Shown one piece after another: positions 50,243 through 58,902 of a stretch of 64,000 nt of DNA. Below the pieces are notes generated by a model. That model searched no databases. It was not told the origin of the DNA and saw only the letters and a program-made list of their open reading frames with translations. The position numbers were made by a program, and so were the translations under genes. The DNA is from Sporosarcina jeotgali. GTDB taxonomy: Bacteria > Bacillota > Bacilli > Bacillales_A > Planococcaceae. Position 1 is the first letter of the stretch. Every line of letters starts with the position of its first letter. The DNA is taken from NCBI RefSeq assembly GCF_033304595.1, contig NZ_CP116341.1:2645001-2709000 (forward strand), written 5' to 3'.

Positions 50243-51050
50243 TCATCTTTTCCCCATACCTTTAAGCGCCCACTCCATCCGACTGAGCAACATGTTCCTC
50301 GTTAATTCCCCTGTCATATTAAACACTTGTAAGCTGAATAAAGGCTGTTTTTGATCAGAGAAGTTCTCCCACTGATCAGCCACGTATTTTAAGTCTGAAG
50401 CTTTAATTAATGCTATATCTGTATCTTCTTCAGAAAAGGCTTTTAGTTTTTGAGCCTGTGCCACTGCTTCTTTCGTATAGTCTTGAACCACGATTAAAAA
50501 CAATGTAACTCTCATTTTCTCTGAACGAATGTATCTTAAAAATTGATTGAAATGATTATCGGGAAAATGGTAAGGAGCCTCTGTACTTTTATTATCCCAT
50601 AAGACCACTTCCTGTTTGCTAAATGGCAATTTTCCGTCGGCATGCCTGGTACCTTCCATAGGCAGAACATCTAATCCAAATTTCCGTTCAAAAATATAAC
50701 GTGTCGCTTCCTCAAAGTAATTATCTACCTCAATATCTTTATCAATCACTTTATTTACTCGGAGTGTTTTATAATCTCTAGCCGCTAATTCTTCATAAAA
50801 ATCAAATAATCGAGATCTGTCATCCGTTGGATCTGAAGACATAGGTGACGATAGCATTTCATAATAATCAATGATGTTCTGAATTTTTTCTTTCTTAGTG
50901 CCACTTACTTTTGCTCCTTCTAACTTTCTCAGTACATCTGATAACTCTTTCATACTAAAAACTTTTAAAGTAAGCCCCCAATTAAATAACGCATAGGCAA
51001 CGCAGCACCCCGCTTGGTACGATATTCGTATCAAACAGGAGGTGCTTTCT

Positions 51051-51239
51051 TTGTTTTTAAACCCTTTAACGATAGTCCCCGTTTCCTTACAACCCACCAA
51101 AAGTGAACAAACTCCAGCAAATCCAACGAAGACCTCCGGTCACTGTCAAATCAAGATTGGTAGCGCTGAAGTCACACTCCAGAATGGCGTGGATGAACGG
51201 ATTATCCAAGTCATTATACGGGAGCTGATGAACCAATGA
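51051..51239 (+). CDS. tnpA: IS66 TnpA
   Basis: About 62 residues, the small accessory protein of IS66, recognisable by its C-terminus IKIGSAEVTLQNGVDERIIQ and ending in IIRELMNQ. The TTG at 51051 has AGGAGGTG at correct spacing; a GTG nine bases earlier lies inside it. Its stop overlaps the tnpB start by four bases (ATGA). Confidence 0.8.
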   Translation: MFLNPLTIVPVSLQPTKSEQTPANPTKTSGHCQIKIGSAEVTLQNGVDERIIQVIIRELMNQ

Positions 51240-51589
51240 GGCAAGATTATACAGATGTTCAGAATATCTATATTGTCTGCGGAAAAACAGACATGCGAAA
51301 AGGAATTGATGGACTCGCTACACTCATTCAAGATTCCTTTGATTTAGATCCATATGGTGATTCTATTTTTCTGTTCGCAGGTGGAAAAAAGGATCGATAT
51401 AAATGTCTATATTTCGATGGTGATGGTTTCGCTATGTTGTATAAAAGACTCGATGCCGGAAAACTTCAATGGCCACGTAGTGAGCGGGAAGTGAAAAATC
51501 TAACGCAGCAAGAACTTCGTTGGTTGCTCGAAGGGTTAGCTATTCAGCAGCCAAGAGCGATTGCTCCTTCATTAAAAAGCTCCTTTTAA
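51236..51589 (+). CDS. tnpB: IS66 TnpB (Orf2)
   Basis: 117 residues of the IS66 Orf2 family: IYIVCGKTDMRKGIDGLATL, IFLFAGGKKDRYKCLYFDGD and FAMLYKRLDAGKLQWP. Needed for IS66 transposition; biochemical role not known. Coupled to tnpA. Confidence 0.95.
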   Translation: MRQDYTDVQNIYIVCGKTDMRKGIDGLATLIQDSFDLDPYGDSIFLFAGGKKDRYKCLYFDGDGFAMLYKRLDAGKLQWPRSEREVKNLTQQELRWLLEGLAIQQPRAIAPSLKSSF

Positions 51590-51647
51590 AAACTTCTGTT
51601 CATGGGCTCCGCTATCCGGTATACTACGTTCAACAAGAAAGAAAGCG

Positions 51648-53228
51648 GTGAAGGAAATGGCCAATCGTACCTCTGAACAAGCATTGGAAAAAGTCATCAG
51701 TATGTTGGAAGAGCAATTGGCGCATTCCAATCAACAGAATGAACAGCAGTCCAAGCAAATCGAAAAACTAACTGAGCAGGTTCAGCACTTGACGAAGATG
51801 CTTTTTGGATCAAAATCCGAGAAATCAAGATACAATGTGCCCGACGGGCAAAGCTCTTTGTTCGATGAGGAAGAGGACCCTTTTCACGATTCTGAGCAAA
51901 CAGAAGATCAAAGCCAACAGGTGATTTCTTACACTGTTGTTCGTAAAGCATCGAAGAAGAAGCGGAATGACCATTTTCATGAAGGTGTGGAAACGGAAGT
52001 TGTTCATCATTATCCTGACCTACTCACCTGTAGCTGTTGTCAAAATGATTTGGCAAGAATCGGTGGGATAGTCGTTCGAGAAGAAGCAGAATTCATCCCT
52101 GCCAAACTGAAACGTATTCAGCATATGGAGCACTCCTATGAATGCAAACACTGCAAACTAGATAGTTCTATAGCAGCCAACATCGTGCGCGGAAAGGCAC
52201 CTCAACCGGTGATTCAACGGAGTCTCGCAGGTCCAAGTGTGCTAGCCAAGGTCATATCAGACAAATATAATCTTTATCTTCCTCTATATCGTCAGGTAAA
52301 AGAATGGCTTCGTCATGGGTTGGAAACGAATGATAAAAATCTATCCAACTGGGTGATCAAGGTTTCAAATGAGTGGCTATTGCCTTTATACCAACGGATG
52401 ACTTCACTAGCGATGCGAAGGACTGTCCTACATGTTGACGAGACAACAGCGCAAGTGATTTATCGGCCTGATGGAAAGCCTGGGAACACGAAGGCATACA
52501 ATTGGGTCTACAAAACTGTTCCCTGCCAAGGACCTGTGATGGTGCTTTTCCATAGTTCGCTATCGCGAGCACGAGAAGTTCTGAAGAACTTCCTTGGTGA
52601 TTACAAAGGAACAATCATTTGTGATGGCTATTCTGCATACGGCGGTTTACCAGGTGTCACCTTTGCCAACTGTTGGGCGCATGTTCGTCGTTATTGGCTG
52701 AAAGTCGACAGTAAGAATGGTAGGATTGGCGTCGACTATTGCAATCAACTCTATCGACTTGAGAACAAATTCAGAGAAATGCGTCCTGGCAAAAGGCGAC
52801 GAATGCGAAAGAAGTATTCCAAACCGATTGTGACCGCCTTTTTTAAATGGATAGAAGAAAGTCATTTCTATGGGAAGAATGCGATTGCCACTGCAACTGA
52901 CTATACATTGAAAAGAAAAGATGAACTCCAACGTTTTCTTTTCGATGGGCGGATTGAAATTGATAATAATCCAGCTGAAAATGCCATCCGTCCCAATGTT
53001 CTGGGTCGGAAAAACTGGCTTTTTTCTGTCAGTGAAGCAGGTGCTCAAGCAAATGCGATCTGTTTGAGTTTGGCTGAGACTGCAAAAATCCATGGAATCG
53101 ATTTCTATGCATATTTGAAAAAAGTATTAACGGATTTGCCGTCTCTTCATTTCCAGCAGACTTCTGAACTATTGGATGCTTATTTTCCGTGGTCGCCGCA
53201 AATTCAAGAAACATGTAAATTGAGATAG
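51648..53228 (+). CDS. tnpC: IS66 transposase TnpC
   Basis: 526 residues, full length. An N-terminal coiled coil (residues 10-50) precedes KMLFGSKSEK; a zinc-binding region has CSCCQNDL and ECKHCKLD; the DDE catalytic residues are in LHVDETTAQV, IICDGYSAYGG and EIDNNPAENAIRP. Either the GTG at 51648 or the ATG nine bases later is the start. Confidence 0.95.
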   Translation: MKEMANRTSEQALEKVISMLEEQLAHSNQQNEQQSKQIEKLTEQVQHLTKMLFGSKSEKSRYNVPDGQSSLFDEEEDPFHDSEQTEDQSQQVISYTVVRKASKKKRNDHFHEGVETEVVHHYPDLLTCSCCQNDLARIGGIVVREEAEFIPAKLKRIQHMEHSYECKHCKLDSSIAANIVRGKAPQPVIQRSLAGPSVLAKVISDKYNLYLPLYRQVKEWLRHGLETNDKNLSNWVIKVSNEWLLPLYQRMTSLAMRRTVLHVDETTAQVIYRPDGKPGNTKAYNWVYKTVPCQGPVMVLFHSSLSRAREVLKNFLGDYKGTIICDGYSAYGGLPGVTFANCWAHVRRYWLKVDSKNGRIGVDYCNQLYRLENKFREMRPGKRRRMRKKYSKPIVTAFFKWIEESHFYGKNAIATATDYTLKRKDELQRFLFDGRIEIDNNPAENAIRPNVLGRKNWLFSVSEAGAQANAICLSLAETAKIHGIDFYAYLKKVLTDLPSLHFQQTSELLDAYFPWSPQIQETCKLR

Positions 53229-54334
53229 CCCTTCGTCTTCAAATTATTGAAGAGAAGGGCTATTTGTAGAGCATGCCGAAAGGCTGTGCTTTTTTATATT
53301 ACGGGCTTACCTTTTAAAGCAGTTGAAGGTAGGATGTTATGCTTAATAATTCTTGCAACTATAGCTTCTTTTACTCCACTTACGTTAAAATCGAGGTGAA
53401 GCAAAATTTCTCTTAGCTGGCTTACACTTAAATCATTCAACAATGTTTCGTATACTTCATTTCTTAGTTCTCCACCCATTTGGTAACGTAAAACACGAGC
53501 GATATCTGTTGGAATTATGTAGTAAGAGGCATCATCTTTAAACCTTAAAATAAGTCCGCGGGTCTGCAAGTTAATTAACGACTTACTAATTTGCTGGTGC
53601 GTATGCAATACATTATTCTTTTGTGGGAATCTGCCAATTCTGCTCTCTATTAAATAATGATCGCGCTTCGTTAAATCAAGCTCTCTTCTTAACACTTCCA
53701 AAATGTTAATCTCATGCTCATTTAAAGATTCATCTTTTTTCCATGCTTCATCAAGTACCGCACTGTAGATTCTATTGACATCTTGGGGGATAAACCGATT
53801 CATGTAACTATCATCTTTACTTTGTTTCAAAATCGCCTTTTCCATGTCTTCTACCTCTTTGTAGAGATTAGCTTCTGTTAGTAAATAGCCTTCCTTTTCC
53901 ATTAACGCCATTAGTATAAGTTCATTTAACAATGCTAAGTCACGTGGTTCACGACTGAAATCCAAGTAATTTTTTACACGCTCTTTGTTTTGAAACTCAT
54001 CAATATTCTTCAGAATCACTTCGCGCATTTCTTCCTCTGTCTCCATGTGGACATCTTTCAAAAAGCTATCTACAATCCTTCCTAGATAAAGCTTTGACAT
54101 CTTTGGTAATATATCTTGTAAATACATTTTCCATCCCCCTCATTACATTTTTGCAAGAGACAAAATTGAGTTGTATAATTAAATAGATGATAAATAATTC
54201 AGATATTTCAAATCAATTATGTCACACAAATATTGGAACATGTAAAGAATGGATGAATTTGAATTGAAAGTTTAGTAAATCTTGAATATCAAGTGTTTTA
54301 TCCAAATTTTTTCAGGCTTTTTACTATATTATTT

Positions 54335-54409
54335 AACAAAAAACGCCAACTCCATCTTCCGGAGTCGACGTTTTTCTATTTCAGACGGATGACTTACATC
54401 ATGCCGCCC
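54335..54409 (-). repeat. Direct repeat A: groEL 3'-end-like site with terminator
   Basis: On the minus strand: ACGGGCGGCATGATGTAAG, reading (T)GGMM-stop as in a GroEL tail, then a hairpin AACGTCGACTCCGG / CCATCTTCCGGAGT region ending in GGCGTTTTTTG. The same 75 bases, with few changes, lie at 58829-58902. The pair brackets the DUF262 island. Likely attachment-site copies. Confidence 0.7.
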
Positions 54410-54758: not shown

Positions 54759-56531
54759 TTATTTTTTTAGAATTCTGAACATTTCCTGTTGATGTTTTTT
54801 AGCTTTGATTTTTGTCCAAGTATCTCCGTTCGTCATTGCTTTCATAATTTTCAGCTTTAAGCTTTGACTAACAATGTAATCATATTTAATTTTACCTTCA
54901 GGAGGCATATTAGAAAACTTAGAGTTCCCTGAAACTGTAATCAAAGCCAAATTTCCAAAGCAGTTTAAATCTTCGCTATCCCATACTTCAGTAGCATCTG
55001 GATGTTGAGGATAGAAATGTTCAATTGAACTTCTGAATTGGAACTGCCAATCATCACGCAATGGTGATATTATCTCTTTTCCATCAAAACTGTAACCATC
55101 ACGATAGAGCAAATAATCTAAATATGAAAATACAATTCGTTCAATTCCAAAATCACTTTGATTTCGATAATCAGAAGCAATAACTTTTTTCTTACAATAT
55201 CCTTCAAGTAAACAAATCAAATTTACAGATTCATTATTTAACAATTCAGCTAATAAAAAAGTTATCCAATGCATTGTTTTTGGTGACGTATAGGTGATAC
55301 GTAACGCCGATTGTAATGTTCGAAGCTGCTTATTTATGCTGTCTTCATCGCCAAATGTGCCAACGTATTTAGGCTTACTCCCTTTTTTATCAGTGTATTT
55401 TTCCAAGCGTTGAAGTGACCATTTTCCTATTTCTTTATAATCACGTGCAAATTCGCGTTTCAAAATATATTTATCAAATAAAACTCTACATTTAAGCAAA
55501 TAATATAAAAACTCTTTTGCTTTTTCAGTTGTTGACCACGCCCAGGATAAATTATCTAAAAAGTTTTTATCATCTAAACTAGAATCCTCTTCTCCTAATT
55601 CACGTACTACAGCACTGACCTGAAGTAAAAAGTTTGGAAATGAAACCGTTGATTCGAATCGTTCATTTTCCATATCGGTACCTTTGCTAGGATCATTTAA
55701 ATTCAATAGTTTATTTTCAACGAGTATATCCTGTAAAGTCTTCTTATCTGAATTACCTCCATCACCAGTTATCTTTTCTTTGACTGCATCGAAGCCTTGC
55801 AATTCATTTTTTAAACTAGTCCAATCATTAGTAAACAAATTCATACGCACGGATGCATCAAAATTCATCTGTACGTATGAATTCATGTCAGAACACTTTT
55901 CCCAAATCTCTGCTGCCGCCTTCTTCTCATCATCGTTCGATAAGACTTCCAGAATTTTCGCTTTCGCAATTTCATGCAATTCCAACTGTTCACCACGCGT
56001 ATTCATGATTTCAAAGTAATGATTCAAATCAATATTTTGTGGTACTTGAACCCTAATCAAAAATACTTTTTTCAACTTTTTAGCGAATTCCGTTTTATCA
56101 AATTGTTTATTGTTAAAGTAGTCATTTATAATTTGAAATCCTTTGGTAATCTCTTTTGCAGTCAACTCTTCCAATAAATCATTGTCACCAGATTCACTCA
56201 CAATAGCTAACGTTCTTGCGTATTTTTCACGTGCTTCAAATTTCAAAGCCTCTTTCGCGAATGGCAACCCAAGAAATCTTTCGAGAAGATAAAGAGTGGT
56301 TAATCGTTGTTGCCCATCAATCACTTCATATAGATTGTTGTCGGTTTGATTTACAATTAAATTCCCCAAAAAATAGTTCTCTTTTCCGTGACCGATTGCT
56401 CCATCAATATCCTCAATCAGCTGATCTATTTGCTTTTCTTCCCAAGCATAATTTCTTTGATAGATTGGCACTATATAATTGTATTTCATAAAAATATCAT
56501 AAACAGGTATTATTTTTAAGTCACTAGCCAT
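54759..56531 (-). CDS. DUF262/DUF1524 GmrSD-like protein
   Basis: 590 residues. The N-terminal DUF262 (ParB/Srx-like NTPase) has VPIYQRNYAWEEKQIDQLIED, YFLGNLIV and VIDGQQRLTTLYLLERFL. The C-terminal DUF1524 HNH-like nuclease has SIEHFYPQHPD near residue 503 and LNCFGNLALITVSGNSKFSN. In GmrSD this pair cuts modified phage DNA using NTP; related proteins serve in BrxU and SspE. It begins three bases after the other DUF262 gene. The ribosome site is GGTGG. A defence role is inferred from family and place. Confidence 0.88.
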   Translation of the reverse strand: MASDLKIIPVYDIFMKYNYIVPIYQRNYAWEEKQIDQLIEDIDGAIGHGKENYFLGNLIVNQTDNNLYEVIDGQQRLTTLYLLERFLGLPFAKEALKFEAREKYARTLAIVSESGDNDLLEELTAKEITKGFQIINDYFNNKQFDKTEFAKKLKKVFLIRVQVPQNIDLNHYFEIMNTRGEQLELHEIAKAKILEVLSNDDEKKAAAEIWEKCSDMNSYVQMNFDASVRMNLFTNDWTSLKNELQGFDAVKEKITGDGGNSDKKTLQDILVENKLLNLNDPSKGTDMENERFESTVSFPNFLLQVSAVVRELGEEDSSLDDKNFLDNLSWAWSTTEKAKEFLYYLLKCRVLFDKYILKREFARDYKEIGKWSLQRLEKYTDKKGSKPKYVGTFGDEDSINKQLRTLQSALRITYTSPKTMHWITFLLAELLNNESVNLICLLEGYCKKKVIASDYRNQSDFGIERIVFSYLDYLLYRDGYSFDGKEIISPLRDDWQFQFRSSIEHFYPQHPDATEVWDSEDLNCFGNLALITVSGNSKFSNMPPEGKIKYDYIVSQSLKLKIMKAMTNGDTWTKIKAKKHQQEMFRILKK

Positions 56532-56534
56532 TCT

Positions 56535-57845
56535 CTACCACCTATTCCAAATACAAAGCTTTTCGTATATTTTGTTGTATTTTTCTATACTCTTTTCATC
56601 AGCTTCTGGCCGTTCTAAAACAATTAGTTTCAATTCTTCAGGTCCCATCATCTCATTAATTTTTGAAAACATATCAAGACCTGCATTAATTCGGTGGTGA
56701 TTTCCTCTGGCATATTTATTTATGGTTTGTGGATACACAGCATTCATAGACAGTCGCAACGAGTAACTCCAAGAATAAAACTGCTGTAATACTGGTTTTG
56801 TAAGACTATCTATGCCAAATCTGTCAGCAAAGAGAAGTAACACACATTTGTACAGCTGCTTAATATAGATGTCTCCAGATCGTTTGCTTGGCAATTCAGT
56901 TTCATCATGAAACTGATTAATCACCTTTTGGACTTTCTCAAGCAAATCTCCGTAATGCAATGTATAATAAAAAAATCGCTTTCCGGCAATCAACGGTTGC
57001 GTCAGTTGAAACTGATTTAACTCATTTGATGATAACAGCTCATTACTTCCGCTAGAATTGAACTGTTCTATAAATAAATTACTCGCCTTATGATAGATGG
57101 CATAATTGAAAATATTTGAGCTTTTAATTCCCTTAAAGGCATCAATTTTGTTTGATGAATAACCTAATCCTTCTTTACGCTTGTACCACTGAGTCACAGG
57201 GTATAAGTAATTTCTAAATAAATCTCTAAGATCATTCTGACTCAAATCTTCCCAACGATTAATTATTTTCATTTTTACATATTCATCGTCATTTACCATC
57301 TCACGCAAATGATAGGATTTTAATAAATCATGTGGATCTAATTCTTTTCCTCGAGAATTTTGCGAATCAAAGAATTGGAATGCTTCTTGTTCACCATCAG
57401 TTACAATTTGAACTGTCGTGCATTGATTCATAAGATATTCTTTATAGTTTTCAAGTTCATCTTTATCAAGTTCACCAGTACGCTTAGCTAAAATCCTATA
57501 ATTCATTACAATGGCGTCATTGGACAATTTATTATATTTCTCTTGAAGCAGGCTTTGTGTTACGTCACCTAGACAGTACAACAAGATAGACAAAGATGTT
57601 AAACGCTGTTGTCCATCTACAATGTTGTACTTTGCACCTCCGCCTTTTATTTCCTTATGCAAGATTACAGATCCAAGTCTATATTCATTTGTACCTTCTT
57701 TAAATGCTCCATAGGTGTCTAAAAACAATGTGTTTGTTGATTGAACACTCCAACTGTATGGGCGTTGATATGATGGCAAGGTTAATTCTTTATCGAGCAA
57801 TTCTTGGATTTTCACAATCTTTAGTTCTTCTTCAATTAATGGCAT
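56535..57845 (-). CDS. DUF262 protein, first of a tandem pair
   Basis: 436 residues. DUF262 domain at the N-terminus (LPSYQRPYSWSVQSTNTLF, YRLGSVILH, YNIVDGQQRLTSLSILLYCL, FFDSQNSRGKELDPHDLLK), then a helical C-terminal part with MNAVYPQTINKYARGNHHRIN. No HNH motif is visible, unlike its partner. The ATG at 57845 has GAGGGAGAG upstream. The two genes are one operon; a split of roles, with one as sensor or NTPase and one as nuclease, is plausible but inferred. Confidence 0.85.
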   Translation of the reverse strand: MPLIEEELKIVKIQELLDKELTLPSYQRPYSWSVQSTNTLFLDTYGAFKEGTNEYRLGSVILHKEIKGGGAKYNIVDGQQRLTSLSILLYCLGDVTQSLLQEKYNKLSNDAIVMNYRILAKRTGELDKDELENYKEYLMNQCTTVQIVTDGEQEAFQFFDSQNSRGKELDPHDLLKSYHLREMVNDDEYVKMKIINRWEDLSQNDLRDLFRNYLYPVTQWYKRKEGLGYSSNKIDAFKGIKSSNIFNYAIYHKASNLFIEQFNSSGSNELLSSNELNQFQLTQPLIAGKRFFYYTLHYGDLLEKVQKVINQFHDETELPSKRSGDIYIKQLYKCVLLLFADRFGIDSLTKPVLQQFYSWSYSLRLSMNAVYPQTINKYARGNHHRINAGLDMFSKINEMMGPEELKLIVLERPEADEKSIEKYNKIYEKLCIWNRW

Positions 57846-57909
57846 AGCCGCTCTCCCTCGAACCAAGTATTACTATAATTATATCATTAGATAGATGAAT
57901 GAATTTTAA

Positions 57910-58520
57910 ATTAGTCATCGGAATAACTCGTGCTGCACTTCCTTGTGAGCTCGTATATTCTAGGATGTTGTTTTCTCCAGTCGTAATGAACACAGATTGC
58001 CAGTTACTCGTACACCTACTACCGTCTAGACTGCCCCTCATCTTGCCTGTACCTTTGCCAAACATATAGATCATTTGCTGTAGCGCTTTTGGATCGTGCG
58101 CTGTATTCGTGTCATCAAGGATTAAGGGGAATACATTTAAAAATGCTGCCATTCGCTCAATCGCTATTTTTGTTGTTAACATAGAACTTATATATTCATT
58201 CGGCTTACCCCAAACACTCGCACATGCTTTTAAACGCTTGTTTTACCACTCGATGATACACCAGAAATATCTACAAGTACCGGCGTTAGATCATGCGGTT
58301 TGAAGAGAACAGATGCAAACGATGATACCTACAGGAAATAATGCTTTTGGATTGTCGGAAAGTGCCGCCATGACGTTTTCTATCCTCCCCTGAACACTAC
58401 CACTTCATTGTATGGCATTTAATCGCTGTACTTCCCCCTCGTCTGGGGGAACAATACGAAAATTCGATTCCAATAAGGGATGAATGAAGTTCTTCCCTAC
58501 ATAACCAAGATGAACGACAA
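57910..58520 (-). pseudogene. Decayed DUF927-family helicase-like gene
   Basis: Read in pieces on the minus strand: HLGYVGKNFIHPLLESNFRI then VPPDEGEVQRLNAIQ and an in-frame stop, SVQGRIENVMAALSDNPKAL, LVDISGVSSSGKTSV (Walker A) and a second stop, then KACASVWGKPNEYISSMLTT, FPLILDDTNTAHDP and SWQ-like FITTGENNIL. This is the DUF927 protein of phages and integrative elements. Two stops and frame changes mean it is dead, and its C-terminus is gone. It marks the DUF262 island as former mobile DNA. Confidence 0.75.
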
Positions 58521-58828: not shown

Positions 58829-58902
58829 AACAAAAAACGCCAACTCCCTCTTCCGGAGTTGACGTTTTTCTATTTATGGGGATGACTTACATCATGCCGC
58901 CC
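58829..58902 (-). repeat. Direct repeat B: groEL 3'-end-like site with terminator
   Basis: On the minus strand ATGGGCGGCATGATGTAAG reads MGGMM-stop, exactly the end of many GroEL proteins, followed by a terminator hairpin (AACGTCAACTCCGG / CCCTCTTCCGGAGTT) and T run. It matches repeat A at 54335. The rest of groEL is not next to it in this window, so this looks like one att copy with groEL displaced to the right. Confidence 0.7.

Follow-up and report, generated by a model that had tools for sequence, protein, structure and literature searches.

The window, a stretch of 64,000 nucleotides from Sporosarcina jeotgali (NZ_CP116341.1), contains a minus-strand gene for a predicted nuclease (54127→50243) that is split by a 2,341-bp insertion sequence (Table 1). 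The element is assigned to the IS66 family by its TnpB and TnpC genes, its matching ends in the form of GTAAGCCC inverted repeats, and an 8-bp target-site duplication, CTTTTAAA, on both sides. Upon removal by script of the IS66 and one CTTTTAAA copy, the resulting empty site presents one open minus-strand frame of 511 codons between the same outer positions. Thus, the proposal of the preliminary description, that IS66 split a single 511-codon gene whose halves rejoin perfectly without the element and one repeat, is borne out by the ends, the duplication, the transposition genes, and the restored frame. The genome has four full copies of the IS66, all 100% identical, which indicates that the element moved recently, and only the broken copy of the nuclease gene. 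Measured against two Sporosarcina orthologs, the split copy has no excess of replacement changes (dN 0.055 and 0.065, where the two orthologs themselves differ by 0.067; saturation at synonymous sites), implying that the knock-out is recent, in agreement with the earlier suggestion of recent silencing. Accordingly, an active IS66 has recently parted the first SAP module (SAP1) from the second (SAP2) and the nuclease domain, and the function has most likely been abolished.

Table 1. Features of the split-gene locus and of loci with related genes (window coordinates unless a genome or locus is named).
Feature	Location	Strand	Evidence or remark
5′ half of split gene: predicted winged helix with helical insertion, and SAP1 (~residues 1–270)	53319..54127	-	Frame, Pfam, model, intact orthologs
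3′ half of split gene: SAP2 and FokI-type nuclease domain; includes one CTTTTAAA copy	50243..50969	-	Frame, alignment, model
IS66-family insertion sequence, 2,341 bp, four identical genome copies	50970..53310	+	Ends, duplication, TnpB/TnpC matches
IS66 TnpB	51236..51589	+	PF05717, NF033819
IS66 transposase TnpC	51648..53228	+	PF03050, NF033517
Target-site duplication CTTTTAAA, left copy	50962..50969	.	Sequence
Target-site duplication CTTTTAAA, right copy	53311..53318	.	Sequence
groEL 3′ end itself	Genome 2719343–2719358		GGGCGGCATGATGTAA copy
Second (middle) groEL 3′-end copy, bounding the DUF262/GmrSD element	58887..58902	-	Exact GGGCGGCATGATGTAA copy
Outermost groEL 3′-end copy, attachment-site-like	54394..54409	-	Exact GGGCGGCATGATGTAA copy
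DUF262/GmrSD_N gene pair, neighboring element	54759..57866	-	Domain matches
116-codon ORF upstream of DUF262 pair	57832..58182		Last part of DUF927 only
Kv-type ion channel, L030	9597–10394		Gap 27 bp
Kv-type ion channel, L035	9499–10299		Gap 4 bp
Kv-type ion channel, L037	6594–6992		Gap 187 bp
Kv-type ion channel, L055	6023–6340		Gap 83 bp
Ion_trans gene, Halorubrum virus Humcor1 (L088; L122)	L122 8148–8978	Other strand	~500 bp downstream of nuclease
Catalase, L031	6404–7879		Directly upstream, co-directional
Catalase, L032	5959–7608		Directly upstream, co-directional
KatG, L026	11292–13475		~1.8 kb downstream; locus near-identical to L027
KatG, L027	11268–13454		~1.8 kb downstream; locus near-identical to L026
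SAP-rich protein, BrxC/BrxD-type ATPase and DEAD-box helicase, L114	6248–11135		Overlapping frames

In this lineage, the nuclease gene lies close to a hotspot of integration. The genome contains exactly three exact copies of GGGCGGCATGATGTAA, which forms the final codons of groEL; the outermost copy lies just upstream of the nuclease gene, leaving that gene just outside the repeats. The stretch from groEL to the middle copy contains an Abi_2 gene and phage genes, among them an integrase next to groEL, and that between the middle and outer copies contains a DUF262/GmrSD pair; the whole is a tandem integration hotspot at groEL, with a prophage followed by the DUF262/GmrSD element. The short ORF upstream of this pair, which matches only the last part of DUF927, appears to be a truncated remnant. 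In another Sporosarcina genome (G211; locus L029) the nuclease gene also lies just past a groEL 3′-end copy, ~18 kb from groEL, and G228 has in common with the present locus a downstream arylamine N-acetyltransferase gene and not groEL. The preliminary description had counted the nuclease gene as part of a defense-rich stretch alongside the DUF262 pair; this membership is not supported, with the pair falling into a separate element bounded by groEL 3′-end copies. As a partner the pair is ruled out, being part of that separate element and absent beside the nuclease in L029, L032, L089, and L090.

Full-length open orthologs were recovered from two other Sporosarcina, with identities of 91% (L002/L029) and 89% (L003/L089), which supplies the uninterrupted gene in related genomes that the preliminary description had asked for; identities are ~28–80% in other bacteria and 22–28% in haloarchaea. 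Among orthologs dN is 0.05–0.15 and synonymous sites are saturated or nearly so, which shows strong purifying selection. Because such uninterrupted orthologs span the full length and end at neither half, the joint is not a chance one, and a reading of the halves as orphan fragments is ruled out. In the taxonomic family, five of 261 genomes have the gene, with two other Sporosarcina intact, two more decayed, and none in other genera; any trace of it is confined to five of the 68 Sporosarcina genomes, and three of these five copies are broken. A draw of 398 genomes from the phylum added three others (relatives at 46% and 35%; one of the three without the nuclease), and a profile scan of 84,980 species yielded 68 loci, spanning bacilli, Clostridia, SAR202, Verrucomicrobiota, Lentisphaerota, Myxococcota, Fermentibacterota, an acidimicrobiian, and haloarchaea. 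Full-length members have ~500–550 residues, and fragmentary ones are found mainly at contig ends, with the exception of the decayed Sporosarcina copies and L071, which has the C-terminal half only. Homologues are also carried by a haloarchaeal virus (Halorubrum virus Humcor1) and a Natrinema megaplasmid; viral scans with single proteins gave no homologue, and the viral profile scan gave one, identical to that of Humcor1. The nuclease tree clusters by phylum.

An AlphaFold model was computed from a 50-sequence alignment with the intact Sporosarcina ortholog L029, rather than the joined window protein, as its first row (mean pLDDT 89.8, pTM 0.78). With the C-terminal part of the model, Foldseek placed FokI at the top (2fok, E 6.8e-7) and Nt.BspD6I next, and VIA-align gave Z 14.7 for FokI, 12.7–13.3 for Nt.BspD6I, and 11.8 for R.BspD6I2 (rmsd 3.2 Å over 153 of 186 residues), with lower rows such as HindIII (Z 9.8) under the FokI/BspD6I values. 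The C-terminal nuclease fold, set beforehand as a test, is hence present in the structure prediction. In the numbering of the joined protein, E356, D381-G382, and W394-D395-N396-K397 show no variation across the 50 aligned bacterial and haloarchaeal sequences, such that the active-site residues D381, D395, and K397 fall exactly where they had been predicted, with the invariant E356 in addition. The family pattern PDG...(V/W)D-x-K fits the spacing of D450, D467, and K469 in FokI. Together, the predicted FokI/BspD6I fold and the conserved D...DxK with its helix glutamate identify a FokI-type PD-(D/E)XK domain. The Pfam FokI_cleav_dom (PF09254) matches residues 346–424 at E 0.0018 and 18.2 bits, under its gathering score of 25, and 18 of the 50 members at E≤0.1 (best member E 9.7e-6); consequently, our claim is one of FokI-type fold and active-site likeness and not of membership in that Pfam family. 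A sequence search of the PDB with the protein returned weak matches only, some of them SAP-like. Predicted structure and residues make the enzyme class clear; the biological role we infer.

Preceding the nuclease domain, a SAP module (PF02037) is found at residues 230–263 (E 8e-7; 28.9 bits, over the cut-off of 23.9), and a second SAP segment is backed by the family alignment, where SAP matches 38 and SAP_new25 (PF18953) 33 of the 50 members; both of the SAP-like segments described earlier thereby stand. The N-terminal 229 residues, modeled alone (pLDDT 88.8), have winged-helix proteins as their best matches across a long insertion, with Z ~8, a value common for such models and accompanied by many ties, so that the match is only suggestive. 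The winged-helix-like stretch of the preliminary description is accordingly retained in the predicted model, not as a continuous stretch, since a helical insertion interrupts it. Visual inspection had hinted at a TerB-like N-terminus; this stayed unconfirmed, with no TerB among the matches listed.

The N-terminal module also occurs outside the nuclease family. In one relative (L114, genome G430) the profile of this module is matched at E 5.8e-45 and followed by further SAP modules, with no match for the nuclease part; this SAP-rich protein heads a run of overlapping frames coding for a BrxC/BrxD-type ATPase (PF10923) and a DEAD-box helicase that weakly matches an Lhr winged helix. In a recent BREX survey (PMC12839542, 2026), BrxD and BrxHI are presented as linked to each other, helicase loading is proposed, and SAP is not mentioned. 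The single case of L114 suggests a platform that can deliver different effectors to DNA. No second SAP/BrxD operon was found in further genomes or plasmids, and a BrxD ATPase with helicase is neither present beside the nuclease here nor recurrent in its family, which does not fit a BREX-type (BrxD/BrxHI) operon.

Clustering of the family loci revealed no obligate partner and no recurrent neighbor beyond small sets. Most matches of the 106 immediate neighbors are to housekeeping families, with a handful to PADLOC models. An amino-methylase motif in a plausible protein was seen in ~2 of 516 neighboring ORFs; thus, the methyltransferase partner that the preliminary description had proposed to look for, and that is expected of a type IIS endonuclease, does not recur across the family loci. 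In four of the 106 cases the immediate neighbor is an Ion_trans (PF00520) gene, always directly downstream of the nuclease and on the same strand. The Bacillota background of ~54 matches in 199 genomes (~0.27 per genome) gives, assuming ~3,000 genes per genome, an expectation of ~0.01 among 106 neighbors. We take the ion channel as a pointer to a second effector in certain lineages and not as a family-wide property.

In line with the earlier statement that no named system was known with this exact layout, Pfam, NCBIfam, and PADLOC have no model of their own for the nuclease family; PADLOC 2.0 has none for the window protein and gives weak, scattered matches for its relatives. The closest known proteins are the type IIS endonucleases and nickases of the FokI/BspD6I type (PF09254), with the same C-terminal nuclease fold and catalytic layout following a winged-helix DNA-binding N-terminus; however, the present family differs in its tandem SAP modules between these parts, its unrelated N-terminal sequence, the lack of a cognate methyltransferase, an identity of 9–16%, and the sub-threshold Pfam match. 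With SAP-domain proteins (PF02037, PF18953) it shares a pair of SAP-like modules, of which the first exceeds the Pfam cut-off, but joins them to a FokI-type nuclease, a combination with no entry in the three databases and no literature that we found. Its N-terminal module is common to the L114 protein, yet the likeness to BrxD ATPase/BrxHI-type helicase operons (type 2 BREX components; PMC12839542) comes from the ATPase and helicase of L114, in one genome, the nuclease genes being without either. The GmrSD/DUF262 modification-dependent restriction systems, represented by the window neighbor, are similarly methylase-free, but constitute an unrelated protein family, here on a separate mobile element and without a counterpart beside the relatives compared.

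These observations lead us to regard the intact protein as probably a stand-alone, methylase-less FokI-type DNA endonuclease, aimed by its SAP and winged-helix modules, and most likely a solitary restriction enzyme acting against incoming DNA. Its N-terminal platform, with a winged helix interrupted by a helical insertion and two SAP helix-extension-helix modules, would grip DNA, and the PD-(D/E)XK domain (E356, D381, D395, K397) would cut it, probably in dimeric form like FokI; we infer the cleavage, the dimerization, the trigger, and the defense role alike. FokI-type cutters are normally paired with a host-protecting methylase. As no such methylase is found here, specificity must come from a feature absent in host DNA (modification, structure, or context) or from regulation. 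The restriction-like role is favored by the sporadic presence, the repeated decay, the presence on viral and plasmid DNA, and the missing methylase, and the restriction or anti-element effector originally envisaged is plausible. The recurrence of the N-terminal module in a BrxD ATPase/helicase operon also speaks for our reading. The mostly housekeeping neighbors and few PADLOC matches, which are unlike those of a typical defense-island gene, count against it, as does the FokI_cleav_dom score of this protein, which falls short of the cut-off. These ordinary chromosomal neighborhoods, including those with catalase (L031, L032) and KatG (L026/L027), along with the strong purifying selection and the clustering of the tree by phylum, keep as a rival a housekeeping or stress-linked repair nuclease, whose SAP modules would bind damaged or AT-rich DNA for incision by the FokI-type domain, with foreign DNA not being the target. 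We consider this unlikely, given the very sporadic distribution even inside one genus and the recurrent decay, the presence on a virus and a megaplasmid, and the want of any conserved repair-gene neighbor.

The channel genes raise a further alternative, namely that two genes make up an abortive or anti-element system, where the nuclease would sense and cut DNA and the Kv-type channel collapse the membrane potential, the partner being lost or distant in most relatives, including here. Four channels directly downstream exceed the ~0.01 expected, their carriers fall in separate parts of the tree, and one more lies near the Humcor1 nuclease. Nevertheless, most members lack such a neighbor, among them every Sporosarcina and the other bacilli, L037 and L055 are close kin whose channel genes run off contig ends, and the background is from Bacillota only; we accordingly deem this reading improbable. 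The nearest solved folds, those of type IIS FokI and its relative BspD6I, could also point to a leftover enzyme of a former restriction-modification system, with its methylase lost or elsewhere. This is very improbable, as intact genes without a neighboring methylase recur across many phyla, and a solitary family so conserved is not expected from methylase loss in one system.

More broadly, it is conceivable, though on balance doubtful, that the solitary methylase-free FokI-type nuclease typifies an unnamed immune family of bacteria, archaea, and viruses, whose platform is common to an ATPase/helicase operon and whose second, membrane-acting effector in some lineages is the Kv-type channel. 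A FokI-type enzyme conserved, with its catalytic residues, from bacteria to haloarchaea in the absence of a methylase poses the question of which feature, lacking in the host, is recognized, and presents SAP modules as the aiming part of a FokI-type nuclease; the intact orthologs are ready material for cleavage and phage assays. One contig labeled Thorarchaeota (L066) encodes a nuclease nearly identical to those of Fermentibacterota; as it is nested among the latter on a very short branch, the label is probably a binning error, and we excluded this locus from the archaeal evidence.
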